Source of the DNA: Candidatus Blautia intestinavium
GTDB taxonomy: Bacteria; Bacillota; Clostridia; Lachnospirales; Lachnospiraceae
Direction: 5' to 3'
Length of the DNA: 64,000 bases
Assembly: GCA_019113745.1 (NCBI GenBank)
Contig: DXGV01000006.1
Coordinates: forward strand, 18,109-82,108
Below, piece after piece: positions 20,775 to 51,151 of this stretch (position 1 is the stretch's first letter; every line of letters begins with the position of its first letter). Made by a program: the position numbers and the translations under genes. The notes below the pieces were generated by a model. That model saw only the letters and a program-made list of their open reading frames with translations. It ran no database searches and was not told the DNA's origin.

Positions 20775-20778
20775 CGCT

Positions 20779-29979: not shown

Positions 29980-30010
29980 TTTTCCTCCATTCAACATCAA
30001 TCTAATATAC

Positions 30011-30038
30011 ATTATAACTTACAATAACCAATACTCAA
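30011..30038 (-). promoter_or_regulatory. Candidate sigma-A promoter for the GtrC-like gene
   Basis: On the minus strand TTGAGT (30038-30033) and TATAAT (30016-30011) are separated by 16 bp, 32 bases upstream of the start codon at 29979. It lies in the 136-bp gap after the gene at 30116, so the gtrB/gtrC pair could be transcribed independently of the rest of cassette M. Confidence 0.5.
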
Positions 30039-30115
30039 AGGCTACACATCTTTACATTACAAACTCCATTGGCAACATGAACGATTGTACTATAAAAATA
30101 ATATTGTACATTGAG

Positions 30116-32041: not shown

Positions 32042-32079
32042 TTTGTCTTGTTTCCTCCTGTTTCCAGCCGCCCTATTAT

Positions 32080-34344
32080 TTAGGAAAAAATCTTTTTGAT
32101 CTTATCAATACACCCAGCCAAATGGATTCCCATTCTTTCTTTTGCTATATAAATAAGCCGTTTAACTTTTCCTTCTTTCCATAACGCTTCAAACCAGCAT
32201 CGTTCCCTCCAGACTTCCTCACATTCCTCATCCTTTCTTCTCCACATATGATACATAGTATAATAATCATCTGGAAAAGAACAAAACTGCTGCATTTTTT
32301 CAGATAATTCTTTTCGCTTTATTTCGGATTCTCCGTCATTTCTCAGGAAATATATTTCTTCTGATAATTTCTGCACCATCTTATCAATTGAAAACATTTT
32401 TTCAATCTTATCCCTACAATTATCAGAAAGTTTTTGATAGAGAATCGGATCTTTCAGGATTCGAACTATCTGTTCCACATATTCATCCCTTTCTTCCTGA
32501 TCAAATTCTCTCTTGTCAAAGTCTTCCCATTCTTTCTGGCGAAGAGGTATCAGCGCTCCTACATCTTTTCCAATCAGATCTTTCTGCCCGCCTACATCAC
32601 TGCTTACAACCGGAACTCCCATGGAAAGCGATTCATATGCAGTAAGCGAGAGCCCTTCTTTCAAAGAGCAGATCAGCGTTAAAACGCTGTCCTTGTAGCA
32701 CGCCCTCATATCGTCAATCTGGCCGATACAGAAAACAAAGGCGTCCATTTTGCGCACGGAAACTTCCTGTTTGAGTTCCTGAAGCTGTCCTCCATCTCCC
32801 GCCACAACAAAAACAATTTCCGGAATCTGTTGATGAACCCTCCATGCGATATCCAGCATGAAAAAAGGTCTTTTTTGCGGGTGAATCCTGCATGGGAATA
32901 AAATGATCTTTTGTTTTGCCTCCAGCTTTAATTTCTGATGCAGAAACCCTTCTTTCACTAAATTCCTGTTAAAGTAGTGCTGATCCACTCCTATATAAAG
33001 AACATCAACCGTCTCTTCCTTCCGGCCAAATTGTTCTACCAATACATTCCGAGTCGAACTATTGCACACAAATGTTTTTTCCAAAACCCATCCCAGGGCT
33101 GCCGAAGTCCTCGCATATCCGCCTTTTCTCCAATACCATTCCTCCATATGAACATAATCCATTATCACCAGATCCGGGAAATGCTTTCTCAGCCACGGCA
33201 GCATATAATATCCGTCATATGAATCCGTGACCATCAAAACATCGATTTCCCTTGTCTGGATAAAATAGCTCACAAATTCTATATAATGAACCGGGTCGAG
33301 GAAATCCGGCATACAGAAAATTTCATCTGTATAGTCTTCAAATTTTTGACGCCATTCATTAGTACCCGATTGAGTGGTAAGAATAAAGCTGTCAATGTTA
33401 TTTTCTTTTAAACCGGAAATCGCATCCAAATTGAATTTATCAGCGCCGCCCATCATCATCCACGGAATCAGCCACAGGACCCGGATCCTTTCATGCTCCC
33501 TGTATGCGCGCATCGTCCATTCTTTGTACTCCGGTATGTAAAAGGACTCTTGGGACATTTTGAATGGATACTCCACGGCCTCTACCTGTCCATCTGCGTT
33601 TTGGGCTGCATTCTCAATAATATTCTGGCAGAATTTTACTCTTTCCGGGTCTTTATTTATCGTAGATAACATACCGCTTTCCAGTCTGCGGTACCAAAAC
33701 AGGCAGCTTGCGATATGAACTGGATACTTGCTTTTTCCAAGCATTTCCAGCCAAAAACGCCAATCCTCATAATAGGACCATTTCTCAACCTTATACCCGC
33801 CAATTTCCAACGCATCCTTTTTCCGGATCATTGCAGCATAGTTAAGGAAATTATATGTTTTAAGACGTTCTGCGTTAAAGGGGTATTGCCAGACATATTC
33901 CTGGTCGTGAAAGCCATAGCTGCTTGTATAGGCCCATGCCGCATCCGCATTATAGTAAAGTCCCCAATATAAGCATTCCAGATAGGTTGGCGCGATAAGA
34001 TCATCCGCATCAAGAGGGGCGATCAATTCTGTATTACTGTTTGCAATTCCTGTATTTCTGGCACACGATAAGCCGCCATTTTCCTGCGTGATTACGGTAA
34101 TTCTTCTATCTGTTTCAGCCAGTCGGTGAAGAAGTTCGATATCTTCCTTTTGTGTACTCCCATCATTTACAATGATCCATTCAAACCAGGGGAAGGTCTG
34201 ATTAACAACAGAATTAAACGTCTCTGCAAAATATTTTCCGGCATTGTAGAAAGGTGTAATAACAGATACCAACGGCTTATCAAAATCCGGATAAAGTTCT
34301 CTTTCTGCAGTTTTGCCAGGCTTTTTTGTGAAATCAACGTTCAT
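32080..34344 (-). CDS. Bifunctional GT2-GT4 glycosyltransferase
   Basis: 754 residues. An N-terminal GT2 domain (~24-250: VSVITPFYNAGKYF, IVNDGST, PLDADDLIAP as metal site, WSYYEDWRFWLEM) is joined to a C-terminal GT4 domain (~297-650: PWMMMGGADKFN, ILFPCRIHPQKRPFFML, EGLSLTAYESLSMGVPVV with the E-x7-E pair). A charged tail of ~90 residues rich in Trp/Glu/Arg follows. Two consecutive sugar additions by one polypeptide are likely. Located in cassette M, 33 bp from the DUF4422-GT8 gene upstream. Confidence 0.9.
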   Translation of the reverse strand: MNVDFTKKPGKTAERELYPDFDKPLVSVITPFYNAGKYFAETFNSVVNQTFPWFEWIIVNDGSTQKEDIELLHRLAETDRRITVITQENGGLSCARNTGIANSNTELIAPLDADDLIAPTYLECLYWGLYYNADAAWAYTSSYGFHDQEYVWQYPFNAERLKTYNFLNYAAMIRKKDALEIGGYKVEKWSYYEDWRFWLEMLGKSKYPVHIASCLFWYRRLESGMLSTINKDPERVKFCQNIIENAAQNADGQVEAVEYPFKMSQESFYIPEYKEWTMRAYREHERIRVLWLIPWMMMGGADKFNLDAISGLKENNIDSFILTTQSGTNEWRQKFEDYTDEIFCMPDFLDPVHYIEFVSYFIQTREIDVLMVTDSYDGYYMLPWLRKHFPDLVIMDYVHMEEWYWRKGGYARTSAALGWVLEKTFVCNSSTRNVLVEQFGRKEETVDVLYIGVDQHYFNRNLVKEGFLHQKLKLEAKQKIILFPCRIHPQKRPFFMLDIAWRVHQQIPEIVFVVAGDGGQLQELKQEVSVRKMDAFVFCIGQIDDMRACYKDSVLTLICSLKEGLSLTAYESLSMGVPVVSSDVGGQKDLIGKDVGALIPLRQKEWEDFDKREFDQEERDEYVEQIVRILKDPILYQKLSDNCRDKIEKMFSIDKMVQKLSEEIYFLRNDGESEIKRKELSEKMQQFCSFPDDYYTMYHMWRRKDEECEEVWRERCWFEALWKEGKVKRLIYIAKERMGIHLAGCIDKIKKIFS

Positions 34345-34377
34345 TAATCATTTCCCCCTTAGTTTTTATAGTTCATT

Positions 34378-36249
34378 TCAGCTCATATATTTAATGATCT
34401 TCATTCCAATTTTACTTTTGTAGAACAATGGCTTAATATATACTCTGATGCTTTTCCTTATCATTCCGGTTTCCGGAAATATACGATTATAAAGGGAAAC
34501 TACTCCATTTACTTCTTCTGCAGCTGTGGGCGGCCCTATTTTCAAAATATCTAAAAGCTCCTCATAACAACCGCTTCTTCTTGCAACCTTCCAGAATACA
34601 TCTCCAAAATCTTCTCCCAGACGGTTCCATGGTTTCATGAACCCGGCATAATGAATAATAAACGGATCGATCCTGGCTTCTTCATATTCTTCTAGAATAG
34701 ACCTGGGAGCACAACGGATCACGTTTGATATCCTCGTATGATCGCAATCCGTAAGCATATTCCATCCCATACCGATGTTAAACCAATTCCCATTGCAAAC
34801 AATATTAAGTACGTCCTGATCAGAATAGCGATAGCGTGTCTCCTCCGACATAGCAAGCAGATCGTCCATCGAATATCTCTCCCGGAAAGCCGTAATATTG
34901 ATGATCAGTACACCTGCCTGAAAATAACTCATAGGATCTACTTTTAAAAATTCTTTCGCATATTTTCCGGTATCCGTATTTTTTTTAAAGCATTGCCCGA
35001 TAAAGTCGGGATCTGATGCTGCTCCTGCCATACATTTTCCAATATTTATGTGATATAGTTCCGCTATATCCCTTTGAACAATCGTATCGCAGTCCAGATA
35101 AATAATCTTTTCATAATTTTTCATCAGCTCAAGAGCAATGAATCTGAAAAAAGTTTCTGTCGATATATGCGCCTTGGCCCTTAGCTGATACCCTGATACT
35201 ACAGCACTTACATTTATAAATAATATTTTGGTATTCTCATAGTGAATTATCTGCCGTTTTATAATATCCTGTTTTTCTTTTGGAATATCTGTATGCAGGA
35301 TATATAATCCATAAAAATACTGCGGATTAGCCTTTTCTATGATAGACTGAATACAGGTGCTCAGGATGGGAACGAAAGAGTTGTTAGCGGCAAGCACTAT
35401 CGGAATTTCATTCTTTACAGGCAGTGGTACTGTAATTTCCTCTACATTTTGAAAAAACACCTGCTGCATCTCTTTCAATCGATATTGATTTTTTTCTTTC
35501 AGATAAGTATAATAAATTCCTAAAATTCTTTCTCCCAAATGCCCTGGCGTTCTGTAAGCTTCTCTGGAATAATCGCTGAGATCACACCTGTTTTCAAATT
35601 CTTCCAAAACTCCAAAAACGAATTCAGAATATTCTTCGAACAAATCCTTCCTCGCTATAAACATATTACAAGGGTAAAAAATATGGCCGAAGAGATATTT
35701 GTTAGCTGCAGATTGATATTCCGGATACTTTTCTTCAATTATCTGCAATACAGTTTTCAGATCTTTTACCTTTAATGCCGGCGCTTCCGCATAATGATCA
35801 AATACGTTGTTGCTTCCATTCAGCAACCTGGTATCGATTCCTTTTGCCACAATAAAATCATATTGCGGAACAATACTGCTTACAGTATTATCATCTACAC
35901 ATATTTTCTGTAAAGCACGAGGTTCAAAAAATGGATACTCCACCCGATACCATCTGCTTTCCTTTAAATTTTCTGGGCTAAAAGAAAAATATCTGCGATA
36001 ATGGCAAAATCCATAATAATCGGCATCTATATTTTTCCATGCCCAATATTGTGTAGTCAATTCACAGTAGGACGCATTTTTGTAAGAGATATTATCTCCG
36101 GTATCGTCTCCGCAGTCAGTTTTCTGCCCGCTCAGAGCAGCACCAGCCTCTATATTGACGTAGATACGACTGTCCTTTATTTCCTTATCATGATGATCAG
36201 GAGAATGAGACACAAAAATTTTTATATTCATATCCCTGCCGCTATTCAT
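34378..36249 (-). CDS. DUF4422-GT8 bifunctional glycosyltransferase
   Basis: 623 residues. The first ~275 are a DUF4422 domain (IKIFVSHSPDH, GDNISYKN, CELTTQYWAWKN, YYGFCHYRRYF), a family of presumed glycosyltransferases. Residues ~280-560 form a GT8 domain (IPIVLAANNSFVPILSTCIQSI, metal site YLDCDT, FQAGVLIINI, SDQDVLN, HYAGFMKPW). The ATG at 36249 overlaps the stop of the ATPase gene as ATGA. A stand-alone DUF4422 protein occurs at 52293-53024. Confidence 0.88.
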   Translation of the reverse strand: MNSGRDMNIKIFVSHSPDHHDKEIKDSRIYVNIEAGAALSGQKTDCGDDTGDNISYKNASYCELTTQYWAWKNIDADYYGFCHYRRYFSFSPENLKESRWYRVEYPFFEPRALQKICVDDNTVSSIVPQYDFIVAKGIDTRLLNGSNNVFDHYAEAPALKVKDLKTVLQIIEEKYPEYQSAANKYLFGHIFYPCNMFIARKDLFEEYSEFVFGVLEEFENRCDLSDYSREAYRTPGHLGERILGIYYTYLKEKNQYRLKEMQQVFFQNVEEITVPLPVKNEIPIVLAANNSFVPILSTCIQSIIEKANPQYFYGLYILHTDIPKEKQDIIKRQIIHYENTKILFINVSAVVSGYQLRAKAHISTETFFRFIALELMKNYEKIIYLDCDTIVQRDIAELYHINIGKCMAGAASDPDFIGQCFKKNTDTGKYAKEFLKVDPMSYFQAGVLIINITAFRERYSMDDLLAMSEETRYRYSDQDVLNIVCNGNWFNIGMGWNMLTDCDHTRISNVIRCAPRSILEEYEEARIDPFIIHYAGFMKPWNRLGEDFGDVFWKVARRSGCYEELLDILKIGPPTAAEEVNGVVSLYNRIFPETGMIRKSIRVYIKPLFYKSKIGMKIIKYMS

Positions 36250-37532
36250 CCTCGAGAAAATGTAGTTTTCTTTATTTGTTCACCATCTACCATCCATTGA
36301 TGCTTCATATGAACAACACCATTTTCATGGTCACAATCATTTGTGATCCTAAATTCAATCAGACGCAGCGCCCTGTCGAGATAATCTCCGCTGTCATCCG
36401 TAATTTCAAAATCAACAATATACTTACATGTAAGCAATGCATTTTCAATGAAACACCTGACTTCACCAGTTGATCTGGTCACTATGGTTTTATTGTTTTC
36501 GAGTGTTAAGGAAGTTTCATAGCACATGATCCAGTCTTCGCGAAAGATACGCAGTCTAAAATTAACCTTTCGTCCGGGTTTTTCATCCTTGTAATCCATT
36601 ACAAAAGAGAAATTTTCATTTACGCCTACTTCGCAGCATTCCTCGCCATTTTCATTTTCCAATCTAATGCCAGTAAAATAAATGTTGCTCGTCCGTTCCC
36701 GTTGCGCATCCGGTCCGCAAAATTCCGTCAGTTCATAACAGCTGGTATCTGCTTTGCTGTTCCCGCCTGTTATTTCCTGCTTCATTCTTTTTCGTCTTTG
36801 CTGATCCATCTCATTCAGATATTCATTGCAGACCTTTCGGGGACTTCCCTCCATACGGATCAGCCCCTTATCGATCCAAAGAGCCCGATTACATATTTGT
36901 TCCACCTGCTGCAGAGAATGAGAAACCAATACGATGGTAACCCCTTCTTCCTTCATCTCTCTTAATTTATTAAAACATTTCGCCTGGAAGCTCGCATCAC
37001 CAACAGCAAGGATTTCATCGATCAAAAGAATATCGGCATCCACATTGATGGCTACAGAAAAAGCAAGTCTGGTATACATTCCGGAAGAATAAGTTCTAAC
37101 CGGATTGTCAATATATTCCTCTAATTCCGAAAATTGGATAATGGAATCCATCCTTCTGGTGATTTCCTTTTCTTTAATTCCGAAAATCGAAGCGTTAATA
37201 TAAATATTTTCGCGCCCGCTCATATCAGGATGAAAGCCCGCTCCAAGTTCTATCAGACTGGAAACCCTTCCTTTGATAGATATATTTCCACTATCCGGCT
37301 TTAAAATTTTAGTCAGCATTTTTAAAGTCGTACTTTTTCCACATCCATTTTTCCCTATAAGCCCAACAGCTTCTCCTTTTTTTACTGAAAAACTTATGTC
37401 TTTAATTACATTTCTGATTTCATATTTACTGTTCCTAAAAATAACTGCATCTTTCAATTGATGTGATTTATCCTGATAAACACGAAAAGATTTATTGATA
37501 TGATTTACTTCTATTACATTATTGCCATTCAT
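36246..37532 (-). CDS. wzt: Polysaccharide ABC exporter ATPase with C-terminal carbohydrate-binding domain (Wzt)
   Basis: 428 residues. ATPase domain (1-~235): Walker A IGKNGCGKST, polysaccharide-type signature TYSSGMYTRLAFS, Walker B ILLIDEILAVGD, switch LVSHSLQQ. A beta-rich C-terminal domain (~280-420) matches the Wzt C-terminal fold that reads the chain end before export. ATG 37532 shares one base with the Wzm stop and has GGAGG eight bases upstream. ATPase of cassette M; closely related to the ATPase half of the fusion at 57550. Confidence 0.94.
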   Translation of the reverse strand: MNGNNVIEVNHINKSFRVYQDKSHQLKDAVIFRNSKYEIRNVIKDISFSVKKGEAVGLIGKNGCGKSTTLKMLTKILKPDSGNISIKGRVSSLIELGAGFHPDMSGRENIYINASIFGIKEKEITRRMDSIIQFSELEEYIDNPVRTYSSGMYTRLAFSVAINVDADILLIDEILAVGDASFQAKCFNKLREMKEEGVTIVLVSHSLQQVEQICNRALWIDKGLIRMEGSPRKVCNEYLNEMDQQRRKRMKQEITGGNSKADTSCYELTEFCGPDAQRERTSNIYFTGIRLENENGEECCEVGVNENFSFVMDYKDEKPGRKVNFRLRIFREDWIMCYETSLTLENNKTIVTRSTGEVRCFIENALLTCKYIVDFEITDDSGDYLDRALRLIEFRITNDCDHENGVVHMKHQWMVDGEQIKKTTFSRG

Positions 37533-38320
37533 TATAATTCCTCCGCAAATCTTCTCTCCAGGCGTATAAATACAAGCATCCCTACTATTAATAAACAAAC
37601 AGCTATTCCACCAGATAAAAGAAGATCATTCAAAACAGGCGCCGTTTTATAATACAAAATAGCGTGATAGGCTTCAATAATCGAAGTCATTGGATTCAAA
37701 TAAAGAACTCCGCGGAACTGTTCTGGAACCGTATCGGCTGAATACATAATAGGAGTGATCCATATCCATGCCATCAAAATCACACCAATGATATGTTCAA
37801 TATCCCTAAAATAAACCGTTACTGCAGAAGCCATCAAAGTCAGCCCTAACGTCATGATATATTCTACAATCATCACCAGGGGTAACCATATTACAGAAGC
37901 TCCAATTCCAACGCCTGATAGCAAAACAACAAGAAATACTACAATGAAGGAAAGGAGCATATTGATAAATCGGCTGGAAACTGTGGTAATTGGAAGAACT
38001 TCCCTTGGAAAATATATCTTCTTTGTCATATCTGCCTGATATACAATACAACCAGCTCCTTGCGCTAAAGATTCTGAAAAGAAAAACCAGGGTATCATTC
38101 CAGAAACCAGATAGACATAATAATTTTCGAGGTTACTGGGAAAAATCACCGAAAAGACCATGATATATACAAGAATCTGGCAAAGCGGATTAACAAAATT
38201 CCATAATACTCCCAAGAGAGAACCTTTATATCTACCGCGCAAATCCCGTTTTACCAGATTTCTGATCATATCCATGTATTGAAAAATTTCTTTGATCTCA
38301 TTTATCAGTTTCACTGTCAT
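37532..38320 (-). CDS. wzm: Polysaccharide ABC exporter permease (Wzm)
   Basis: 262 residues, six membrane helices of the ABC-2 type. The amphipathic N-terminal segment VKRDLRGRYKGSLLGVLWNFVNPLCQ is diagnostic of the Wzm/TagG group. Very similar to the P2 permease at 56768 (shared LVKRDLRGRYKGS, QGAGC, KKIYFPREVL) and much less to the P1 permease at 42327, so M and P2 are sister cassettes. Start overlaps the GT2 gene by 23 bp. Confidence 0.94.
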   Translation of the reverse strand: MTVKLINEIKEIFQYMDMIRNLVKRDLRGRYKGSLLGVLWNFVNPLCQILVYIMVFSVIFPSNLENYYVYLVSGMIPWFFFSESLAQGAGCIVYQADMTKKIYFPREVLPITTVSSRFINMLLSFIVVFLVVLLSGVGIGASVIWLPLVMIVEYIMTLGLTLMASAVTVYFRDIEHIIGVILMAWIWITPIMYSADTVPEQFRGVLYLNPMTSIIEAYHAILYYKTAPVLNDLLLSGGIAVCLLIVGMLVFIRLERRFAEEL

Positions 38321-39284
38321 TTCCTCGCTTTTTTATCGGATATTCAATCGTTGGATGAAAAAAGAATCCGCTTCCCATCCCTTTTATAACAACAATTATT
38401 CTTTTTCCTTTTTTTTCAGAGTTACTTCTCAATATTGCCTTAATTGTCCCAATAACTCTGTATAAATAATACATTACCGCCAAAGTTCCATTTCTTCTTG
38501 CAAGATAAAACTCATTGCGAAAAGAATAATAGTAACGGTCTATTCTGTATGTGGAATCATTACTGATATCTGAGCCAACGTTATTTTCGGTTTTATGCAG
38601 TACTTTACTCCGTATCACCAAAAAATTATTCATTTCAGCACTGATCCGATCTGTATACTCCCAGTCATCCCCCCAAATAAAGAATTCTCTGATGGGAAGT
38701 CCAAGCTGCTTTACTGCTTCGGCATTCAGAAACATAGAAACAAAAGTAGCCCTCCTGACAGGTAATAAACCATATTTTATATTTTGCAGTTGGGTTATCC
38801 AGTCCTCTTGCAACTGTGGTCTGTTCATTACACAAGGCATGTCATCTATCCATGCAACGTAGCTGGACAGGAATCCATAATTTCCCTTCAAAAATGAATC
38901 GGCAAACAGCAACTCTTCCAAGGCGTTTTCTTCTGGAATCGTATCGTCATCCATAATCCACAAACGTTCATAGCCCTTCTGCAGCATTTCTTTTATCCCA
39001 AAGGAAAATCCACCGGCTCCTCCCAAATTTTTTCCTGTATTCAGATAATGAATACGGTCATCCGATCGTTTCTCATTCTCTACTGCACCTTTGGTTCCAT
39101 CTGTGCTTGCATTATCAACTATATATATATCAAATTTTGTAAAATTTTGCCTTTGTATCGCAGAAATACATTGTGTCAAAAGTTTTTTACGGTTATAGGT
39201 TACAATCAAGACTCCAATTTTCAGTTTTCTGTTTATACTCTTTTGATGCTCAATTATCTCTTCCATACTCTTGCCATACCCCAA
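38298..39284 (-). CDS. GT2 glycosyltransferase, GlfT2/rhamnosyltransferase-like
   Basis: 328 residues. GVLIVTYNRKKLLTQCI, VDNASTDGT, NLGGAGGFSFGIKEML, metal site IMDDDTIPE and the EFFIWGDDWEYTDRI segment are typical of the galactofuranosyl-transferring branch of GT2. Homologues lie in P1 (47460-48341) and P2 (55876-56784), the latter beside a UDP-galactopyranose mutase domain. It sits between the GT8 and wzm genes of cassette M. ATG 39284 directly follows the GT8 stop; ATG 39266 is the alternative. Confidence 0.88.
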   Translation of the reverse strand: MGYGKSMEEIIEHQKSINRKLKIGVLIVTYNRKKLLTQCISAIQRQNFTKFDIYIVDNASTDGTKGAVENEKRSDDRIHYLNTGKNLGGAGGFSFGIKEMLQKGYERLWIMDDDTIPEENALEELLFADSFLKGNYGFLSSYVAWIDDMPCVMNRPQLQEDWITQLQNIKYGLLPVRRATFVSMFLNAEAVKQLGLPIREFFIWGDDWEYTDRISAEMNNFLVIRSKVLHKTENNVGSDISNDSTYRIDRYYYSFRNEFYLARRNGTLAVMYYLYRVIGTIKAILRSNSEKKGKRIIVVIKGMGSGFFFHPTIEYPIKKRGNDSETDK

Positions 39285-40310
39285 CTACATCAGTCGGCAG
39301 TTTTCTCCTTCACGAGAATCTTTTGCACATCTTGAAATAAAAAGCTGATAGGCAAATTGATAGATCACCAAAAAGCAAAAATCCGGCAGCACTTTATACA
39401 GGAATTTTTCAAAACTGAAAATAACATTCTTATTTTTTAAATCAATTTTCTGAAATTTTTTCCACCTGGATTTTCTCAAATAATAGTCGAACTCAGGCCG
39501 ATATGGATGAAGGCTTTTTTTGTTCCAGGGAAATTCCCCTAAAAATCTAAAAAAATGCAAAATAGCGGGAGCTTGTGCTGCAGATTCAATTTCAGCATCC
39601 GCATAATACACAGATGGACGGAATGTATAGTTATACAGTTTGACTGTATAACGTCTATGAATAGGCTGCAAATTATATTGTGGCGGAAGAGTTCTAATTT
39701 CTCCCTTGAGCACAACATTCAGTAAATCCTGATCAGGGGACATGAAATGGGCTCTGACTGATTGGGCGTACCGGACAATCCTTTCTGTACATTGCCGTTT
39801 CCTCCACTCGTTCAAATCAATCAAAATAACTCCCGCATTAAAATATGCATCACCAATAGTAAGACCTATCTGTAAAGCATGTCTTTTCCCCAAAGAGTCA
39901 TATACCATCGCAAGAGGATAACCTTTCAGATCCCAATCTAAAAGAGGTTTTAAAGATGCTGTCACTACAGTATCCGAATCAATATAAAGAATACGCCCAG
40001 ATTCTTCAGGAAGTAACTCAGGGAGCAAGAGCTTAAAGTTTGTCGTATATGAGCCCCTATACTGTGGAATTCCTAAAGATTGCAATCGAATAATCGCCTT
40101 TTTTGTATCTAAAAAAGTAACTTGACGTTTAAAATCATGTACGGTCTGCCGAATGGTACCAATGGTTTCATCAGTCAAGTTTTCTCCTAAAATATATACA
40201 TGTATATACTTAATATCTTCATTATTCTTCAACAACGAGAAAATTGATGTTCCGGCAAAAGGCGCATATAATTCATTAAATTGATATAAAACCTGCAATA
40301 CTTCTGTCAT
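39285..40310 (-). CDS. GT8 glycosyltransferase heading cassette M
   Basis: 341 residues. VLYQFNELYAPFAGTSIFSLL at the start, GIPQYRGSYTTNFKLLLPELL, metal site YIDSDTVV, YFNAGVILIDL, SPDQDLLNVVL and HFFRFLGEFPW mark a GT8 transferase. Two close paralogues (41295 and 54793) head the other cassettes. The start codon has no good ribosome site and lies 29 bp from recombination site A. In the orientation seen here no good promoter points at it, so the cassette appears OFF. Confidence 0.92.
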   Translation of the reverse strand: MTEVLQVLYQFNELYAPFAGTSIFSLLKNNEDIKYIHVYILGENLTDETIGTIRQTVHDFKRQVTFLDTKKAIIRLQSLGIPQYRGSYTTNFKLLLPELLPEESGRILYIDSDTVVTASLKPLLDWDLKGYPLAMVYDSLGKRHALQIGLTIGDAYFNAGVILIDLNEWRKRQCTERIVRYAQSVRAHFMSPDQDLLNVVLKGEIRTLPPQYNLQPIHRRYTVKLYNYTFRPSVYYADAEIESAAQAPAILHFFRFLGEFPWNKKSLHPYRPEFDYYLRKSRWKKFQKIDLKNKNVIFSFEKFLYKVLPDFCFLVIYQFAYQLFISRCAKDSREGENCRLM

Positions 40311-40338: not shown

Positions 40339-40359
40339 AACATTTTGGGATAAAATGTT
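40339..40359. repeat. Recombination site A (upstream of cassette M)
   Basis: 21-bp dyad: arms AACATTTT and AAAATGTT around spacer GGGAT. Site B (41228-41248) in reverse complement matches at 20 of 21 positions. Site C, extended to 54724-54748, is an exact 25-bp inverted copy of 40334-40358. It lies between the GT8 start codon of cassette M and the recombinase promoter. The site role is inferred from structure, copy number and position beside a tyrosine recombinase. Confidence 0.8.
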
Positions 40360-40400
40360 GTCTTCATCCCTTTCCCAGCAATCGTTCAACAACCAACTTG

Positions 40401-40430
40401 TTGTAAGAATGCCTTCTGCCGTGCTATACT
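40401..40430 (+). promoter_or_regulatory. Recombinase promoter
   Basis: TTGTAA (40401-40406) and TATACT (40425-40430) with 18-bp spacing and a TG extended -10 (40422-40423). A short ACAAC/GTTGT dyad overlaps the -35 region. It is followed by GGGAGGG ahead of the recombinase ATG at 40456. Confidence 0.6.
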
Positions 40431-40455
40431 CTGGAAAAAACGGGAGGGTTAACCA

Positions 40456-41034
40456 ATGTGCAAGACAGATCCAATTAAAAACACGGAAGACATCAAGCGG
40501 CTGAAAAACTATTTTCTGCTCAGAAACCAATACAGGAATTACGCCATGGTTACGGTAGCGCTGAATACATCGCTTCGCATTGGCGATCTGCTGGGGCTGA
40601 CATGGGGAGATGTATATAATGCAAAGACAGGAAAATACCGGGAACACATTGTTTTGATCGAACAGAAAACCGGAAAAAGAAATATCATTGCATTAAATAA
40701 GGAAGCAATTCAAGCATTGAAGATACTTCAGAACACATTGGATGCTGTGACCCCTTCCGAATACATTTTTAAAAGCCGGGTCGGCATCAACCAGCCAATC
40801 GTCAGGTCCTATGCCTTTCGGATCATCAAACAGGCGGTGCTTGATCTGAACCTGGAGGGAACGATCAGCTGTCATTCTCTGCGCAAGACATTCGGGTATC
40901 ACGCATGGAAAAAGGGAGTTCCGCCAGCATTGATCATGTCGATATATAATCATTCCTCGATCGAGATTACAAAAAGGTACCTTTCCATAGATCAGGATGA
41001 CAAAGATGAGGTCTTTCTCGAGATGAACCTGTAA
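40456..41034 (+). CDS. Small tyrosine recombinase (FimB/XerC-type DNA invertase)
   Basis: 192 residues, catalytic domain only, without the N-terminal core-binding domain, as in FimB/FimE. Catalytic residues visible: Arg41 (SLRIGDLLGL), Lys71 or Lys74, His140-x-x-Arg143 (CHSLRKTF), His166 (YNHSS) and nucleophile Tyr175 (TKRYLS). GGGAGGG lies eight bases before the ATG. It lies between two divergent glycan cassettes and between matching inverted sites A and B, so its likely job is to invert the promoter segment it is encoded on. No phage or transposon genes accompany it, which argues against a role in element mobility. Confidence 0.93.
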   Translation: MCKTDPIKNTEDIKRLKNYFLLRNQYRNYAMVTVALNTSLRIGDLLGLTWGDVYNAKTGKYREHIVLIEQKTGKRNIIALNKEAIQALKILQNTLDAVTPSEYIFKSRVGINQPIVRSYAFRIIKQAVLDLNLEGTISCHSLRKTFGYHAWKKGVPPALIMSIYNHSSIEITKRYLSIDQDDKDEVFLEMNL

Positions 41035-41087
41035 TGACGCATAATTGCCCGGTTATTCCGGATATACTAACTCAGACATCAAAAATT

Positions 41088-41134
41088 CCGGGAACAGCTC
41101 ATTCCAATTTCAGGAACTGTCCCCGGTCTTCTTT
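41088..41134 (+). terminator. Intrinsic terminator after the recombinase
   Basis: A 10-bp stem, CCGGGAACAG (41088-41097) with CTGTCCCCGG (41117-41126, one G-U pair), is followed by TCTTCTTT. It begins 54 bp past the recombinase stop and ends before the outward promoter, so it separates recombinase transcription from the cassette. Confidence 0.7.
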
Positions 41135-41153
41135 GGCAATTTGCTCTTACCTA

Positions 41154-41182
41154 TTGAAAAATGTGTCAGAATGTGCTATTCT
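41154..41182 (+). promoter_or_regulatory. Outward-facing promoter inside the invertible segment
   Basis: TTGAAA (41154-41159), exactly 17 bp, then TATTCT (41177-41182) with extended -10 TGC (41174-41176): a near-consensus sigma-A promoter. Predicted start about 41189, 40 bp before site B, so the transcript crosses B into the P1 GT8 gene. No comparably good promoter was found at sites A or C reading into their cassettes. Confidence 0.78.
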
Positions 41183-41227
41183 GCGATACAGGGATATGGA
41201 AATGAAGTTGAACAGAAGGCTGAAGGA

Positions 41228-41248
41228 AACATTTTATCCCAAACTGTT
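41228..41248. repeat. Recombination site B (upstream of cassette P1)
   Basis: Dyad with arms AACATTTT and AAACTGTT around spacer ATCCC, the reverse of site A's spacer, so A and B are inverted relative to each other. B is in the same direction as site C (19 of 21 identical). It lies 47 bp before the GT8 start codon at 41295. Confidence 0.8.
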
Positions 41249-41294: not shown

Positions 41295-42314
41295 ATGAAA
41301 TTGAATATATTATATCAATTTAACGATGCATATGCCCCCTATGCAGGCGTTTCCATCTGTTCCCTTCTGAAAAATAATCAGAAAGCCGAAGCGATTGAGA
41401 TCTATGTTCTGGGAGAGAAGCTTTCCTCCGGCAGTATCAGCCGCTTGCGGTCTCTGGTCAAACAGTATGGGAGAAGGATAACATTTTTAAACAGCGACAG
41501 GATTCTGAAAAAGATCAAGGAACTGGGTATTCCAAAATATCGCGGTTCCTTTGCCGCAAATATGAAGCTTTTTTTCTCCTCTGAAATAAGCGAAGAGGCG
41601 GAAAGGCTTCTGTATATAGACAGTGATACCCTGGTTGTGGATTCGCTGGAGGCACTGTTTTGTTTTCCCATGAAAGAATATCCCCTGGCAATGGCCCTCG
41701 ATTCCCTGGGGAAAAAGCATAAAACATATATAGGGCTCCGGAAGGGGGATCCCTATTTTAATTCCGGAGTGATTTTGTTTGATCTGAAAAAATGGAAGGA
41801 ACTAAACTGCGAAAAGCAGTTGGCCGAGCATGCGCTTTATTCCCGTGCACATTACATGTCTCCTGATCAGGATCTGATCAATGCAGCTCTGAAGGGGCAG
41901 ATCGGGCGGCTCGACGCACGGTTTAATTTTCAGCCGATTCATTTTCGATATTCTGCCGGCCTTTATCGATGCTATTGGAAACAGAACGGGTATTATTCCG
42001 CAAAAGAGCTTCTGGATGCGAAAACGCAGCCGGTGATTCTGCACTTCTTCCGTTTCCTCGGAGAATTTCCCTGGGATACGGATTCCCTGCATCCGTATGC
42101 GGAAGCATTTGCGGATTATTTAAAGCAGTCTCCCTGGCAGGATTTGCCGGAGAAAGCTTCTGTTCAGCAGGGAGCTGTTTTTCAGATCGAACGTTTTCTG
42201 TACCGCTTACTTCCTGACATCCTTTTCATGCCGGTTTTCCGTGCCTGTTACGGGATTTTTTTATGGAAAGCGGAGCGGGCTTCCCGAAGGGGGAAAAATG
42301 ACAGAAAAATGTAG
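41295..42314 (+). CDS. GT8 glycosyltransferase heading cassette P1
   Basis: 339 residues, paralogous to the GT8 proteins at 39285 and 54793 along the whole length (ILYQFNDAYAPYAGVSI, GIPKYRGSFAANMK, YIDSDTLV, YFNSGVILFDL, SPDQDLINAAL, HFFRFLGEFPW). AAAGGAG precedes the ATG by ten bases, a better ribosome site than its two paralogues have. First gene transcribed from the outward promoter in the orientation seen here. It may add the first variable sugar of the chain, since a homologue opens every cassette. Confidence 0.93.
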   Translation: MKLNILYQFNDAYAPYAGVSICSLLKNNQKAEAIEIYVLGEKLSSGSISRLRSLVKQYGRRITFLNSDRILKKIKELGIPKYRGSFAANMKLFFSSEISEEAERLLYIDSDTLVVDSLEALFCFPMKEYPLAMALDSLGKKHKTYIGLRKGDPYFNSGVILFDLKKWKELNCEKQLAEHALYSRAHYMSPDQDLINAALKGQIGRLDARFNFQPIHFRYSAGLYRCYWKQNGYYSAKELLDAKTQPVILHFFRFLGEFPWDTDSLHPYAEAFADYLKQSPWQDLPEKASVQQGAVFQIERFLYRLLPDILFMPVFRACYGIFLWKAERASRRGKNDRKM

Positions 42315-42326
42315 GAAAGGTATATT

Positions 42327-43106
42327 ATGCGTTTTATTACAGATGTCCGAAAATATTTTCATTATATTATATTCTCTGCCCGGTCGCAGCTGCGTTCAGA
42401 GGTAGTCAATTCCTACCTGGACTGGGTCTGGTGGATCCTGGAGCCGTTCTGCAATATGATCGTATATACGATCATATTCGGCTATGTATTTCAGGCGGCG
42501 GAGCCTTATTTCCCCATCTTCCTGTTTATCGGGATCAGCATGTGGGGGTTTTTCAGCAAAACGCTTACGGCCAGCGTTAAACTGATCAAGTCGAATAAGG
42601 CTATTGTTACAAAGGTATATATTCCCAAGCAGATGCTTCTTCTTAAGCTGATGGCTGTCAATGCTTTCAAAATGCTGCTGTCATTTATCATCATTTTCCT
42701 TATGATGCTTTTCTATCGGGTGCAGGTCAATGCTTCTTTGCTGTATGCGCTGCCGGCGCTTTTGATCCTGTTTATTTTTACTTATGGGATTTCCTGCTTC
42801 CTGATGCACTATGGCGTGTATGTGGAGGATCTGGCTTATATCGTCACGATCCTGATGAGTATGCTCATGTATTTTACCGGTATTTTTTATTCCATAGAAA
42901 AACGGATGCCGGAACCCTTTGGTCATCTCCTGAGCTTATACAATCCGATTGCCTGCCTGATCACCGTGATGCGAAATTCTCTGTTATATATGCAGAACTC
43001 ATCTTTGACCGTGCTGGGGATCTGGTTTTTGGTCTCCGTGCTGATCGCGGCCTGTGGAACGAAGCTTATTTATAAGAATGAAAACAGCTATGTGAAGGTA
43101 ATATGA
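42327..43106 (+). CDS. wzm: Polysaccharide ABC exporter permease (Wzm-type, divergent)
   Basis: 259 residues, six helices, ABC-2 type (QLRSEVVNSYLDWVWWILEPFCNMIVYTIIFGYVF at the N-terminus; PIACLITVMRNSLLY late). It aligns only loosely with the M and P2 permeases, so P1 has a different exporter lineage. Its stop overlaps the start of the ATPase gene, indicating a co-translated pair. Confidence 0.92.
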   Translation: MRFITDVRKYFHYIIFSARSQLRSEVVNSYLDWVWWILEPFCNMIVYTIIFGYVFQAAEPYFPIFLFIGISMWGFFSKTLTASVKLIKSNKAIVTKVYIPKQMLLLKLMAVNAFKMLLSFIIIFLMMLFYRVQVNASLLYALPALLILFIFTYGISCFLMHYGVYVEDLAYIVTILMSMLMYFTGIFYSIEKRMPEPFGHLLSLYNPIACLITVMRNSLLYMQNSSLTVLGIWFLVSVLIAACGTKLIYKNENSYVKVI

Positions 43107-43837
43107 TGGAAAACTGTGCAATTAAAGTCGATCATCTCTGTATCGACTATAAACCATATAAAAAAACGTCCATTCAGAAAAGCCTGTTTAAAAAGAAACA
43201 GGAAAAAATGGAGATGATCCATGCGGTAAGAGATGTTTCCTTTTCTCTGGAAGAAGGAGAGATTCTTGGAATCGTCGGAAAAAACGGCAGCGGAAAATCC
43301 ACTATGCTGCGCGCGATTGCAGGGATCTTCATTCCGGATCAGGGAACGATAGATCTGCATGGCAACTCAGTCTCCCTCCTGTCGATAGGCGTTGGATTTA
43401 CACCAGAAATATCCGGCCGGGAAAATATCCTTCTTTCCGGAATGCTGCTCGGTTTCAGCGAAGAACAGATCCGCGAAAAAATGGATTCCATTATTGAATT
43501 TTCAGAGCTGGGGCAGTTTATAGATTATCCGGTCCGCACCTACTCCAGCGGTATGTATTCCAAGCTGGCCTTTTCCATCACGGCATCTCTGGAAACGGAT
43601 ATTATCCTGATCGATGAAGTGCTCAGCGTGGGAGATGAACGCTTTCAGAAGAAAAGCTATAACAAGATGAAAGAACTGATCTCCAACAAAACCCGCACGG
43701 TGATGATCGTTTCCCATAATACGGAAACACTCAGGCAGCTGTGCACGAAAGCCATGTGGATCAACGACGGAATGATGATGTCAATCGGCGAGACCCAGGA
43801 GGTGCTCAGCCAGTATCAGCACTATATGAATAAGTAG
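43103..43837 (+). CDS. wzt: Polysaccharide ABC exporter ATPase without C-terminal binding domain
   Basis: 244 residues, ATPase domain only: Walker [11 protein letters not shown], signature [13 protein letters not shown], Walker [14 protein letters not shown], switch IVSHNTET. Unlike the other two ATPases it lacks the carbohydrate-binding C-terminal domain, as in KpsT or TagH-core type exporters. Chain length in P1 would then be controlled differently. Starts ATGATG overlapping the permease stop, with AAGG upstream. Confidence 0.93.
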
Positions 43838-43869
43838 AAATATTTATCACACAGAGGGGAGAAATACGA

Positions 43870-45099
43870 ATGAAAATTGCAGTTGCCGGCACCGGCTATG
43901 TTGGATTATCGAACGCGGTTATCCTGGCTCAGAAAAATGAGGTATACGCTCTGGATCTGATCCCGGAGAAGGTAGAGCTGATCAATGCCGGAAAATCACC
44001 CATTGTAGATGCAGAAATCTCACTTTATCTGAAAAGCGGGAATCTGAACTTGAAAGCTACCTTAAATGATGTGGAAGCATATACGGATGCAGATTTTATC
44101 ATCGTTGCAACGCCGACAGATTATGATGCAGAAAAAAATCACTTTAATACTTCTTCTGTTGAGCAGGTTGTGGAACGGATCACACAGATCGATCCGAAGG
44201 CGGTCATCGTGATCAAATCCACCGTACCGGTGGGATATACGGAGACGCTTTGTCGACAGTATCCGCAGGCTTCTTTTTTGTTCTCGCCGGAATTCCTGAG
44301 AGAAGGAAAGGCGCTGTACGATAACCTCTATCCTTCCAGGATCGTGGTCGGCATCCCCTCCCAAAGAGAAGATCTGACTCAAAAAGCGCATGTTTTTGCC
44401 AGGCTGCTTCAGGAAGGCGCCATTAAAGAAGAAATTCCCACCCTATTTCTGCATTCTACGGAGGCCGAAGCGATCAAACTATTTGCCAACACTTATCTGG
44501 CCATGCGGGTCGCTTTTTTCAATGAGCTGGATACCTATGCGGAGATTCGGGGACTGGACACCCGCTCCATCATAGAGGGCGTATGCCTGGATCCCAGGAT
44601 CGGAAACCATTACAACAATCCTTCCTTTGGCTACGGAGGATATTGTCTTCCCAAAGATACCAAACAGCTTCTCGCGAATTATCATGATGTGCCCAACAAT
44701 ATCATGGGGGCGATCGTAGAAGCCAATCGGACGCGCAAGGAATTCATAACGGAGCGGATCCTGGAACGCGTTTCCGCCTCCGCGCAACAGAAAGCAGAAG
44801 ATTCCGCCAGGACTGCCGCAGGTACCGTCGGGATTTACCGTCTTACCATGAAGACCAATTCCGATAATTTCCGGCAGAGCTCCATCCAGGGTGTGATCCG
44901 TCGTCTGAACGAAAAGGGCGCAAAGGTCCTGATCTATGAACCGGCCGCCAGGGAAGTTTCTTTTTTCGGAAATCCGGTCACCAAGGATCTGGAATCGTTC
45001 AAGAAACTTTCGGATATTGTGGTAGCCAACAGAATGTCTCCGGAGCTGGAGGATATTTCTGAAAAGGTTTATACCAGGGATCTGTACGCTCGCGACTGA
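43870..45099 (+). CDS. ugd: UDP-glucose 6-dehydrogenase
   Basis: 409 residues. [14 protein letters not shown] at the N-terminus (NAD site), [18 protein letters not shown], and [12 protein letters not shown] with catalytic Cys259, then the C-terminal UDP-binding domain. It oxidises UDP-glucose to UDP-glucuronate. A 4-epimerase for that product lies at 7433-8479 in the other operon, and glucuronate may also be used directly in P1. GAGGGGAG precedes the ATG. Confidence 0.93.
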
Positions 45100-45118
45100 G
45101 GAAGGGGAAGGGACTGTG

Positions 45119-46090
45119 ATGGTTAAGGTATCGGTTATCCTACCGGTCTACAATGTGGAGCAATATCTGGAGCAATGCCTGGACAGTATTGTTGGACAGA
45201 CGCTAAAAGATATTGAAATTATCTGTGTAGACGATGGCTCTACAGATAATTCTCTGAATATTTTGAAAAATTATCAGAAAAAAGATCCCAGAATCCGGCT
45301 GATCGAACAGAAAAATGCCGGAGCCGGAGCGGCGCGCAACGCGGGAATGCGTGCGGCGTGCGGACAGTGCCTGTCTTTCCTCGATTCCGATGATTTTTTT
45401 GAGCCGGATATGCTGGAAAAGGCTTACGAATGCCTGGAGCAGTATCAGGCGGATTTTGTGGTATTCGATTCCGATCAGTTCCATATGGATAAGCAGGAAT
45501 TCGTGGATGTGCCATGGGTGTTTCGCAAGCAGGAAATCCCTCCCTATATGCCCTTTTCTCACAGGGAGTTGACGGACAATGTGTTCAAGGTCTTCGTCGG
45601 CTGGGCCTGGGACAAGCTCTACAGACGCAGTTTCGTGGAAGCCCATGCGCTGCAGTTTCAGGAGCAGCGGACCTCCAACGACCTGCTGTTCGTTTTCAGC
45701 GCTCTCGTTCTGGCAAAAAGGATCGCCGTCGTCGGTCAGGTTCTGGCACATCAGAGGCGGGGAAGCTCCACCTCCCTCTCTGTCACCCGGGAAAAATCCT
45801 GGCACTGCTTCTACGACGCTCTGACCGCGCTGCGCCGCAGGCTCGTGGAAGAACATATCTACTGGGAACTGGAGCAGGATTTCATCAATTATGCGCTTCA
45901 TTTCTGTCTCTGGAACCTGAATTCCCTGGCCGAACCCACCCATCGCCTGCTGCAGGAAAAGCTCTGTTTCGAGTGGTTTTCCGAGCTGGGGATCGTGGAG
46001 AAACCGGAAAGCTATTTTTACAGTCTCAGTGAATATGAACAGTACAAAATGCTGATGCGTTCCGGAAGATCGGGGGGAAATCATGGATAA
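45119..46090 (+). CDS. GT2 glycosyltransferase
   Basis: 323 residues. VSVILPVYNVEQYLEQCLDSI, VDDGSTDNS, AGAGAARNAGMRAA and the metal site FLDSDDFFEP define a GT-A transferase of the EpsJ/WcaA kind. The C-terminal half (VGWAWDKLYRRSFV, HQRRGSSTSLS) is shared with many clostridial capsule transferases. GTG at 45116 and ATG at 45119 are both possible starts after GGAAGGG. The last 8 bp overlap the next gene. Confidence 0.92.
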   Translation: MVKVSVILPVYNVEQYLEQCLDSIVGQTLKDIEIICVDDGSTDNSLNILKNYQKKDPRIRLIEQKNAGAGAARNAGMRAACGQCLSFLDSDDFFEPDMLEKAYECLEQYQADFVVFDSDQFHMDKQEFVDVPWVFRKQEIPPYMPFSHRELTDNVFKVFVGWAWDKLYRRSFVEAHALQFQEQRTSNDLLFVFSALVLAKRIAVVGQVLAHQRRGSSTSLSVTREKSWHCFYDALTALRRRLVEEHIYWELEQDFINYALHFCLWNLNSLAEPTHRLLQEKLCFEWFSELGIVEKPESYFYSLSEYEQYKMLMRSGRSGGNHG

Positions 46091-47447
46091 GGTATCTGTT
46101 ATTCTGCCAATTTATAATGTCTCTGCTTACCTTCGGGAATGTCTGGACAGCGTCATCGCCCAGACGCTCAAAGAGCTGGAGATCATCTGTGTCAACGACG
46201 GTTCCACGGATGATTCTCTGGATATCATCCGGGAATATGCGGCGAAGGATCCCAGGATCGTTGTGATCACAGGCCCCAACGGCGGCTATGGCAAGGCAAT
46301 GAACAAAGGCCTTGACCGTGCTACGGGCGAATATGTGGGGATCGTGGAGCCGGATGATTATATCGCGCCGGATATGTATGAAAGCCTGTACCGGGTCGCG
46401 TCCGAAAATGATCTGGACTTTGTGAAATCCGACTTCTACCGGTTTTCCAAAGACGAACAGGGCCAGGAGCATCAGGAATATGTCACCATTGACCGGGCGG
46501 CAAAAAGGCGTTACGGACGGCTCCTAAATCCCAGCGAGGAGCCGGACTGCATCCGTTTTACCATGAATACCTGGACCGGCATTTACCGAAGAGATTTTCT
46601 GGAAGCTTTCCATATCAGACATCACGAGACGCCCGGAGCATCCTTTCAGGACAACGGCTTCTTTTTCCAGACCTTTATCTACGCGAAGCGGGCTATGATC
46701 GTCAACCAGGCATACTACCGAAACCGTCGCGACAATCCGAATTCTTCCGTAAAAAGCAAAGAAAAGGTCTACTGCATGAATATCGAGTATGACTTTATCC
46801 GCGATATCCTGATGCGGGATCAGGCCTTATGGGAACGCTTCAAGTACATGTACTGGTGGAAGAAATATTTCTGCTATATGTTCACACTTGACCGGATCGG
46901 GGATTCCTTTCATGAGGAATATCGGAAACGGATGAGCCGGGAGTTCCACAGAGCCATGCAGAAGGGAGAACTGTCGCGGGATACCTTTACGGAGCTGGAG
47001 TGGCAGAAGATCCGGGTTCTGACCAACAATGCCAACGATGAAGCGCTTCTTCCGGTTCCTGATTCCATGGTACGGGTTTTCGCTCCCTTCATTCCCCGTT
47101 TCATAAAACGGAGGATCTTGGAAGCCCTGTCTGAGAATGAAGCCTTTTTCAGCCGGAGCCGTGTGGTCACCAGGAAAAAAGCGGAAGCGAAAATTCAGGT
47201 GATCCGTTCCTCTGCCCCTTTTCGGCTGGGTTTCTGCCTGACCTTCCCGTTCCGTTGCTGCGTTCATCTTTTTGCGCAGATCCGGCATTTCGGCCTTCTT
47301 AAGGGGATCCAGAGAACACGCGGAGCCAAAATCCTGTTTTACCGGGACAACAATCCGGTGACTGAGCTGGCGCTTCTGCAGGATTCAGCCGCGCTGAAGC
47401 TGGGAGTTTTACTGCTGCTTCCCTTCGGCCATTCTTCCAGGAAATGA
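46083..47447 (+). CDS. GT2 glycosyltransferase with long C-terminal region
   Basis: 454 residues. The first ~110 carry the GT-A motifs (VSVILPIYNVSAYLRECLDS, VNDGSTDDS, GPNGGYGKAMNKG, VEPDDYIAPDMY). The middle (SFQDNGFFFQTFIYAKRA, YYRNRRDNPNSSVKS) is the usual acceptor part, followed by ~130 basic residues with a hydrophobic stretch near 385-400 that may touch the membrane. GGGGGG precedes the ATG. Sugar unknown. Confidence 0.9.
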   Translation: MDKVSVILPIYNVSAYLRECLDSVIAQTLKELEIICVNDGSTDDSLDIIREYAAKDPRIVVITGPNGGYGKAMNKGLDRATGEYVGIVEPDDYIAPDMYESLYRVASENDLDFVKSDFYRFSKDEQGQEHQEYVTIDRAAKRRYGRLLNPSEEPDCIRFTMNTWTGIYRRDFLEAFHIRHHETPGASFQDNGFFFQTFIYAKRAMIVNQAYYRNRRDNPNSSVKSKEKVYCMNIEYDFIRDILMRDQALWERFKYMYWWKKYFCYMFTLDRIGDSFHEEYRKRMSREFHRAMQKGELSRDTFTELEWQKIRVLTNNANDEALLPVPDSMVRVFAPFIPRFIKRRILEALSENEAFFSRSRVVTRKKAEAKIQVIRSSAPFRLGFCLTFPFRCCVHLFAQIRHFGLLKGIQRTRGAKILFYRDNNPVTELALLQDSAALKLGVLLLLPFGHSSRK

Positions 47448-47459
47448 CAGGGGGCGTGA

Positions 47460-48341
47460 ATGTCTGAGATAAAGCTTTTGACATTGATCATAACCTATAA
47501 CCGTTTGCCGCTTCTGAAGGAGTGCATCCAGGCTGTGCTCGGCCAGTCCTGGAATTCCTTCGACATTCTGGTGATCGATAATCACAGTACGGACGGAACC
47601 TGGAAGTACCTGCAGACGCTGGAAGGAAAAGGTGATATATCCTTCCTCCGTCTGGAACAGAACACCGGCGGTTCCGGCGGATTCCATATCGGGATCAGGG
47701 AAGCGCTCCGCCGGGGATACAGTCATATCTGGCTCATGGATGATGATACGGTTCCGGACATCCATGCCGCCGAAAGGCTGCTTTCCGCCGAAAGGCTGCT
47801 GGGGGAATACGGCTTTCTCGTCAGCCTCCCCGTATGGAAGGATGGTTCTCTGTGCAAAATGAACCTTCCGTTGCCCGGACAGTTCCGCAGGGAAAAGGGA
47901 CGGATCCTGCAGGAGGGACTTCTTCCGGTAAGGAAGGCTACCTTCGTTTCCATGCTTCTTAAAGCAGATATCGTCCGGGAGGTCGGCCTGCCGATCAGGG
48001 AATTCTTTATCTGGGGGGACGATCAGGAATATACGGAGAGAATATCCAAAAAGTATAAATGTTATCTCGTCCTTTCCAGTGTGGTGCAGCACAAGACCAA
48101 AAACAATCTGGGTTCGGATATCAGCACCGACAGCCCGGAGCGGATAGAGCGGTATTATTACGCTTACAGGAATGAGCTGTATATTGCAAAGAGGAATGGG
48201 ATTCTTTCTTTGGGGTTTTATTTTGTGAGAGCTTTTTATTCTCTGATTAAAATCCTTTTATTCTCCAAAGAGAAGAAATGGACGAGAGTGTTGTGGTTGT
48301 TTAGAGGGATGATTGCAGGATTCTTTTTTGTCCCTCAATAA
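47460..48341 (+). CDS. GT2 glycosyltransferase, GlfT2/rhamnosyltransferase-like
   Basis: 293 residues. LLTLIITYNRLPLLKECI, IDNHSTDGT, NTGGSGGFHIGIREAL, LMDDDTVPD and EFFIWGDDQEYTERI match the homologues at 38298 and 55876. The three cassettes thus each own one, but in P1 it lies seven genes in rather than next to the GT8 gene. The 3' end is more AT-rich than the start, and a promoter-like sequence overlaps the stop codon. Confidence 0.9.
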   Translation: MSEIKLLTLIITYNRLPLLKECIQAVLGQSWNSFDILVIDNHSTDGTWKYLQTLEGKGDISFLRLEQNTGGSGGFHIGIREALRRGYSHIWLMDDDTVPDIHAAERLLSAERLLGEYGFLVSLPVWKDGSLCKMNLPLPGQFRREKGRILQEGLLPVRKATFVSMLLKADIVREVGLPIREFFIWGDDQEYTERISKKYKCYLVLSSVVQHKTKNNLGSDISTDSPERIERYYYAYRNELYIAKRNGILSLGFYFVRAFYSLIKILLFSKEKKWTRVLWLFRGMIAGFFFVPQ

Positions 48342-48356
48342 ATATTGGTATACAAT
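48328..48356 (+). promoter_or_regulatory. Candidate promoter before the tandem GT2 gene
   Basis: TTGTCC (48328-48333), 17 bp, TACAAT (48351-48356). It overlaps the end of the preceding gene and precedes the AT-rich gene at 48380, which may therefore be expressed apart from cassette P1. Confidence 0.4.
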
Positions 48357-48379
48357 ATAAGAGAAAGGATTCGCTTGAA

Positions 48380-50587: not shown

Positions 50588-50639
50588 GCCGATATTCATA
50601 GCATTATCTATCAATGAGCAAATTTGAGTTTTTATCAAT

Positions 50640-51129: not shown

Positions 51130-51151
51130 ATTATTCACAGGAGAGCTTTTT

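Follow-up and report, generated by a model that had tools for sequence, protein, structure and literature searches.

Small tyrosine recombinases of the FimB/FimE and RecV types act on short inverted repeats and invert the promoters of surface genes. In the portions of the published accounts considered here, several other inversion systems bear on surface variation: in the vpma locus of Mycoplasma agalactiae (recombinase Xer1), the vsp locus of M. bovis and the vsa locus of M. pulmonis, one unique promoter is shared by several silent units, a recombination site precedes each unit, inversion brings one unit behind the promoter and the recombinase is encoded in the locus (PMC2268961); in Eggerthella lenta, site-specific inversions with a 16-bp inverted repeat accompany altered expression of three capsule gene clusters (PMC13174815, preprint); in Bacteroides fragilis, the serine recombinase Mpi alone inverts at least 13 separate regions, including seven polysaccharide loci (PMC5903667); and in Clostridia, the invertons of group 139 with invertase group 35 lie beside tyrosine-type recombinases (PMC11892184).

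The locus described here lies within a window of 64,000 nucleotides, the whole stretch of Candidatus Blautia intestinavium DNA that was analysed. With a probability of roughly 0.7, we read it as an invertible element that encodes its tyrosine recombinase and has a predicted promoter pointing outward, and that likely serves as a one-promoter selector among three glycan-export operons, the cassettes M, P1 and P2 (Table 1). With the FimB/FimE and RecV systems it shares a small tyrosine recombinase and short inverted repeats, and it differs from them in having the recombinase within the inverting segment and three sites. Like vpma, it combines a single promoter, several site-preceded units and a recombinase in the locus; the vpma units, however, are single lipoprotein genes, whereas here each unit is a whole glycan-export operon of 9-13 kb; a single 0.9-kb segment carries both recombinase and promoter here, while the vpma account, as far as considered, does not describe xer1 as lying on the promoter segment (PMC2268961). 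By analogy, the logic resembles mycoplasma Vpma switching, scaled up to whole glycan-export operons. With E. lenta the locus has in common a gut bacterium, site-specific inversion and surface glycan clusters, but the E. lenta inversions measure 2.06 Mb and 32.5 kb, involve a different inverted repeat and reposition the clusters relative to LuxR-like and/or loaP genes, and a self-carried recombinase-promoter element of the present kind is not described in the sections of the preprint at hand (PMC13174815). As with Mpi, surface polysaccharide loci come under DNA inversion; unlike in the Mpi system, one promoter would here serve several operons. The family of recombinases considered below may overlap with inverton group 139 and invertase group 35; the consulted part of that study describes inverton-invertase pairs, and multi-cassette selection as proposed here was not found in it (PMC11892184). 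A literature search, which extended to few subscription journals and not to bioRxiv and in part reached excerpts only, found no account of a promoter-plus-recombinase element selecting whole glycan-export operons in Lachnospiraceae.

Components of the invertible segment

Table 1. Coordinates of the switch, its cassettes and the intervening genes in the window
Feature	Position	Strand	Content or basis
Cassette M, predicted OFF in the window state	27400..40310	-	GT8, GT2, Wzm, Wzt, DUF4422-GT8; further genes in the text
Recombination site A	40339..40359	-	AACATTTTGGGATAAAATGTT; ATCCC read on the minus strand, facing cassette M
Crossover zone	40344..40359 in A, paired with 41228-41243 of B	.	From the flipped assembly G064
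Predicted recombinase promoter	40401..40430	+	TTGTAA-N18-TATACT with TG; promoter scan
Tyrosine recombinase, 192 aa, catalytic domain only (PF00589)	40456..41034	+	Pfam, alignment, AlphaFold2, Foldseek
Hairpin between recombinase and outward promoter	41088..41126	+	Fold z -2.88 for 41035-41160
Predicted outward promoter	41154..41182	+	TTGAAA-N17-TATTCT, extended -10 (TG); ~45 bp before site B
Recombination site B	41228..41248	+	AACATTTTATCCCAAACTGTT; precedes cassette P1; cassette-side arm with 1 mismatch
Cassette P1, predicted ON in the window state	41295..52222	+	GT8, Wzm, Wzt, UDP-sugar dehydrogenase, four GT2-like, acyltransferase
Genes for DUF4422 and Schlafen/AlbA_2-HATPase proteins, separating P1 from site C	52293..54553	-	Domain searches
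Recombination site C	54723..54743	+	TACATTTTATCCCAAAATGTT; core and orientation of B; 40 bp before the listed P2 start
Cassette P2, running toward the contig end	54784..63909	+	GT8, GT2-like, Wzm, Wzt-UDP-galactopyranose-mutase fusion, GT2-like genes, membrane protein

Sites A and B are built from arms AACATTTT/AAAATGTT flanking the asymmetric 5-bp core ATCCC, and in A both arms match AACATTTT. The two are inverted copies identical at 20 of 21 bases, and a search with the core-specific 21-mer, allowing up to 3 mismatches, gave 3 matches in the window against 0 in 100 dinucleotide shuffles; the initial annotation, which had proposed two inverted 21-bp dyad sites, is borne out on this point. Site C, absent from that annotation, was found by the same search of the window. 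At the same threshold the whole source assembly (2.73 Mb, 82.7% complete) has 3 matches. Rfam models gave 0 matches in the window at the gathering threshold.

The recombinase matches the Phage_integrase family with E=2.2e-27 and 96.4 bits (cut-off 27.1). Seven of its residues—R41, K71, K74, H140, R143, H166 and Y175—are invariant in an alignment of 30 sequences, comprising the window and 29 of 53 relative loci, and we take R41, K74, H140, R143, H166 and Y175 to be the Arg-Lys-His-Arg-His-Tyr catalytic set of tyrosine recombinases; the intact set earlier ascribed to this 192-residue protein thus agrees with both the domain match and the alignment. The AlphaFold2 model has a mean pLDDT of 93.8, and its Foldseek matches include Tn1549 Int, XerA, lambda Int and Cre. 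Unlike the FimB/FimE type, the protein misses the cut-offs of both NCBIfam tyrosine-type DNA invertase models, presumably those for FimE and FimB (35.6 vs 222 and 26 vs 221 bits), and its best NCBIfam match, XerA_Arch, is also below cut-off (70.3 vs 220). A search of 63 other genomes of the genus recovered no close relative (best 37% identity in long matches); 61 of the 64 genomes, source included, have some match, which apart from the source reaches at most 42% identity, or at most 37% in long matches, and these outside matches are generic tyrosine recombinases.

The predicted recombinase promoter is located inside the segment and would therefore travel along with it; its TGCTATACT is present in the related loci L008 and L009 too. 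The near-consensus outward promoter through site B that had been annotated was recovered as a motif, and it is retained in L008 and L009 at the same distance of ~45 bp from the site, whereas in L014 it has one change in the -35 element and stands closer to the site. The absence of a visible promoter for cassette M likewise held up, the scan of 40250-41320 having yielded no promoter-like site on the minus strand. Promoter-like consensus matches in the element number 4 observed vs 2.4 expected. Across 30 elements including the window (a set that leaves out L007, which equals the window, L011, L015, L022 and 20 loci without a clear repeat), outward promoter scores were not above those of shuffles (8.42 vs 8.13), and compared with inward scores they were better in 13 elements, worse in 11 and tied in 6. 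The segment had also been said to carry an insulating terminator behind the recombinase; this item was rejected, as the scan returned 0 terminator-like sites and the hairpin found there has no T run, so that of the three components recombinase and promoter stand in the positions given and the terminator falls away. Also discarded was a leader peptide that in the window reads across site B; by eye, it is absent from L008 and L009.

Inversion between sites A and B

The assembly of Candidatus Eisenbergiella intestinipullorum (G064; locus L007), which represents one strain with the window, carries the window's flanks with the A-B segment reversed. When 40339-41248 is inverted in silico, L007 and the window show 2 differences in 20,576 bases, as against 630 without the inversion, and the same 2 differences are found over 40,000 positions of G064. 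Both are accounted for by the single base separating the cassette-side arm of B from that of A. As this base stayed with P1, the exchange must have occurred inside 40344-40359 / 41228-41243, a stretch of 16 bp with the differing outer-arm base as one limit and the inner flanks as the other. Thus, within one strain the segment exists in both orientations between inverted repeats, and at the level of assembled sequence the comparison shows an A x B inversion with its crossover inside the 16 bp.

The orientation opposite to the window recurs in L008 of E. stercorigallinarum, whose P1 stretch is 90% identical and whose contig ends 6 bp past a site, and in G066, where it was judged against a syntenic flank. 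Going by the orientation of the recombinase, the promoter is on the M-type side in G064, L008, G066 and the genome G071, and on the P1 side in the window. Two further loci look from their sequences like assemblies merging both orientations: L011 has a 417-bp flank and a 384-bp promoter end each repeated in exact inverted form, the copies meeting at a scaffold gap, and L015 has a 137-bp exact inverted flank copy at the contig start; in both loci the copies of one flank stand on either side of the element. The reversed segment that the initial annotation proposed to look for in relatives is therefore present in the same strain (G064) and in another species (L008). Its scheme of a segment flipping the promoter between P1 and M stands as regards the invertible element and is incomplete as regards the two cassettes, since there is a site C with a third cassette. 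As a separate observation, L008:7600-8986 holds an insertion of ~1.4 kb between the recombinase and the outward promoter, with broken ORFs that in our estimation resemble a nuclease/transposase family.

Three sites, three cassettes and the readings they allow

All three cassettes begin with a GT8-family gene, have their own Wzm/Wzt exporter and are preceded by a site 28-46 bp upstream, the distance from the end of site A to the listed start of M being 28 bp. Identities among them amount to 46-50% for GT8, 24-60% for Wzm and 40-46% for Wzt, a divergence by which M, P1 and P2 look like alternatives rather than copies. M further includes a GT2 plus group-1 glycosyltransferase, a pyruvyltransferase-like gene, a membrane protein and a GT2-like gene, the last two without a Pfam assignment here; two of the four GT2-like genes of P1 were scanned, and those of P2 were assigned by eye. 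From the window's orientation we predict M to be OFF and P1 to be ON. A scan of 54450-54802, upstream of P2, gave no plus-strand promoter-like site. The 822-aa protein at 57550-60018 of the window unites a Wzt ATPase with a UDP-galactopyranose mutase domain, and an ORF at 26536-27108, at the far end of M, resembles, by eye, a transposase remnant. The DUF4422 and Schlafen/AlbA_2-HATPase genes are not known to be parts of the switch; the latter stands directly ahead of site C both in the window (53033-54553) and in G071 (L123:14020-15243), and in G066 its place is occupied by an AAA_14-DUF4143 gene.

The full arrangement A(-) B(+) C(+), each site followed by a Wzm/Wzt cassette, occurs in three of the eight species examined genome-wide with their sites listed, namely the source, G066 and G071. 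In G066 (E. merdavium; recombinase 85% identical) the sites lie at 24634 (-), 25481 (+, 3 mismatches) and 37367 (+), with a Wzm/Wzt-bearing cassette past each. Its left flank is syntenic with 19467-25469 of the window at 74-77% identity and its cassettes match in short stretches only, which suggests that the switch stayed while the cassettes were replaced. In G071 (Clostridia bacterium UC5.1-2E3; recombinase 69% identical; core TCCCC) they lie at 88231 (-), 89103 (+, 5 mismatches) and 105419 (+), and Wzm/Wzt genes follow each, several exporter ORFs being split; site C is overlapped by an unassigned ORF, and the first recognised cassette gene begins 1.2 kb further on. Shuffle controls, 50 each, gave 0 sites at up to 1 mismatch for the window, 3 for G066 and 2 for G071; the B site of G071, which needs 5 mismatches, is not beyond chance (0.44 shuffle matches on average). 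The cassette-side arm of B has 1 mismatch each in the window, G064 and L008 (the first two being one strain), 3 in G066 and 5 in G071, and that of the other sites is perfect wherever compared (A 5/5, C 4/4), site C being perfect in the window, G066 and G071 despite their differing cassettes.

Other, more distant relatives have the pair only: G078 and G074, G065 on a 9-kb contig and, among the matches listed in the generic-pattern search described below, G075, G091, G092 and G106 at 1 mismatch, a setting that misses weak sites. G068 has a pair plus an extra copy within the L011 collage, and from its sequence this copy looks like a product of the collage. The search for extra sites in fetched flanks extended to 10 kb per side at most, so that a site 12-16 kb away would escape it. 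Among 397 genomes of the family, searched at up to 2 mismatches, the source and 10 others match, of which eight have single sites, G225 an inverted pair and G489 four sites, each having a different core. G067, the genome of L010, was rejected as a three-site case: a local pair lies at C104, and C14 and C134 have sites with the same core, but the recombinase is outside the pair and, by eye, the site at C134 has its own promoter-like sequence upstream. Its same-core sites on separate contigs nevertheless suggest, as sequence arrangements, a selector. They are found on three contigs (L125:3393-3656, L126:11024-11044 and L127:5038-5058); those of L126 and L127 precede NusG-domain genes heading glycan genes, and the leaders after the site in L125 and L126 are, by eye, nearly identical.

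A same-core site thus stands before each of the window's three units in orientations that permit inversion, and the state graph shows that inversions alone give four arrangements: P1 (window), M (G064), P1 with the middle block reversed, and P2. In the proposed mechanism, the recombinase within the segment would perform the crossing on all three sites and the promoter would fire outward. The A x B inversion, observed between assemblies, would turn the promoter from P1 to M or back; once it faces M, a 14.4-kb inversion between A and C would place the element before P2. A cassette without the promoter would be silent, and any of the three could be the transcribed one. B and C are direct repeats, and hence B x C recombination would delete the 13.5-kb middle (P1) block—speculatively, the imperfect cassette-side arm of B might lower the risk of such a deletion.

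A plainer arrangement would be a two-way switch using A and B alone to alternate P1 and M, with site C a relic or rarely used and P2 expressed independently. A x B is indeed the sole inversion seen: the assemblies examined show no product of A x C or of B x C recombination, the promoter-to-unit junctions in them represent the P1 and M states and not that of P2, the three-site genomes all keep the order A-B-C, and several relatives have the pair only. Against this, the core and perfect cassette-side arm of site C have been kept in the window, G066 and G071 though the cassettes differ, and the scan gave no plus-strand promoter-like site in the window from 54553, the near edge of the minus-strand gene, up to site C; we regard a switch confined to A and B as unlikely. 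Far less probable is a small mobile element that its recombinase inserted beside the cassettes, inversion being a by-product. That none of 63 further genomes searched in the genus has a close relative, while many named species have relatives, and that the Tn1549 integrase is the top Foldseek PDB match would fit such an origin, but the ends are inverted and not direct repeats, and G066 has the element at a syntenic locus. With tyrosine recombinases, inverted repeats lead to inversion, not excision.

Scarcely credible, finally, is the notion that misassembly at short inverted repeats produced the opposite orientation: the evidence on orientation does come entirely from assemblies, mostly metagenome-derived, but G064 and the window span both junctions with >16 kb of compared flank per side and no other difference in 40 kb, and L008 shows the same alternative orientation. 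Within the favoured selection of one among three operons by a single promoter, a bolder and tentative extension, against which we see the odds as somewhat tilted, pictures a read head with interchangeable glycan cartridges. The 5-bp core would be an address, and any glycan-export operon gaining a 21-bp site would join the mutually exclusive set; Lachnospiraceae would inherit the site plan and swap cassettes wholesale, with same-core sites even on separate contigs in G067, and the weak B arm would have been selected against loss of the middle cassette.

The wider recombinase family and the meaning of the switch

A scan of genome contigs found 53 relatives of the recombinase, and 3787 of 4276 candidate proteins of a protein collection match. 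The recombinase is enclosed by an inverted repeat in 33 of the 53 relatives (score at least 18; L011 and L015 by their duplicated flanks), and many of these repeats have the form (TGC)AACAYTYT-N5-ARARTGTT(GCA). A search with the generic site pattern covered 49 of the 53 loci (48 genomes; L042, L055, L057 and L059 left out) and gave matches in 42 of the 48 genomes, the reversed-pattern control matching in most as well. Its use in G079 (Eubacterium plexicaudatum ASF492, L022) gave 23 generic sites genome-wide, and the ten places listed include three pairs of inverted sites with matching cores, spaced 280-286 bp; judged by sequence, the arrangement suggests a single recombinase that serves many small promoter invertons.

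A TAAAGTATTT...CCGATAT-like motif, which we assume to be sigma-28-like, was recognised loosely, by eye, in 19 of 29 elements viewed (the 30 scored for promoters less L024). It stands before the site in sister elements such as L026:8922-10136, L028, L034, L041 and L043. In L026, two recombinase genes enclose a flagellin gene, which adjoins a motif-bearing element, and the contig has a third site pair with a different core. With motif-bearing elements of this kind, one of them beside a flagellin gene, different surface structures seem to share one family of recombinases.

If the selection of M, P1 and P2 by one promoter is true, this group of gut Firmicutes would switch whole cell-surface polymers, exporter included, via a promoter moved among operons, in contrast to systems with a separate invertible promoter per operon. 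The design would itself make expression mutually exclusive and would let very different glycan operons replace one another under constant control. Such loci would lend themselves to concrete tests of phage escape and of immune variation, and the site core would provide an address code for finding further silent cassettes in genomes.
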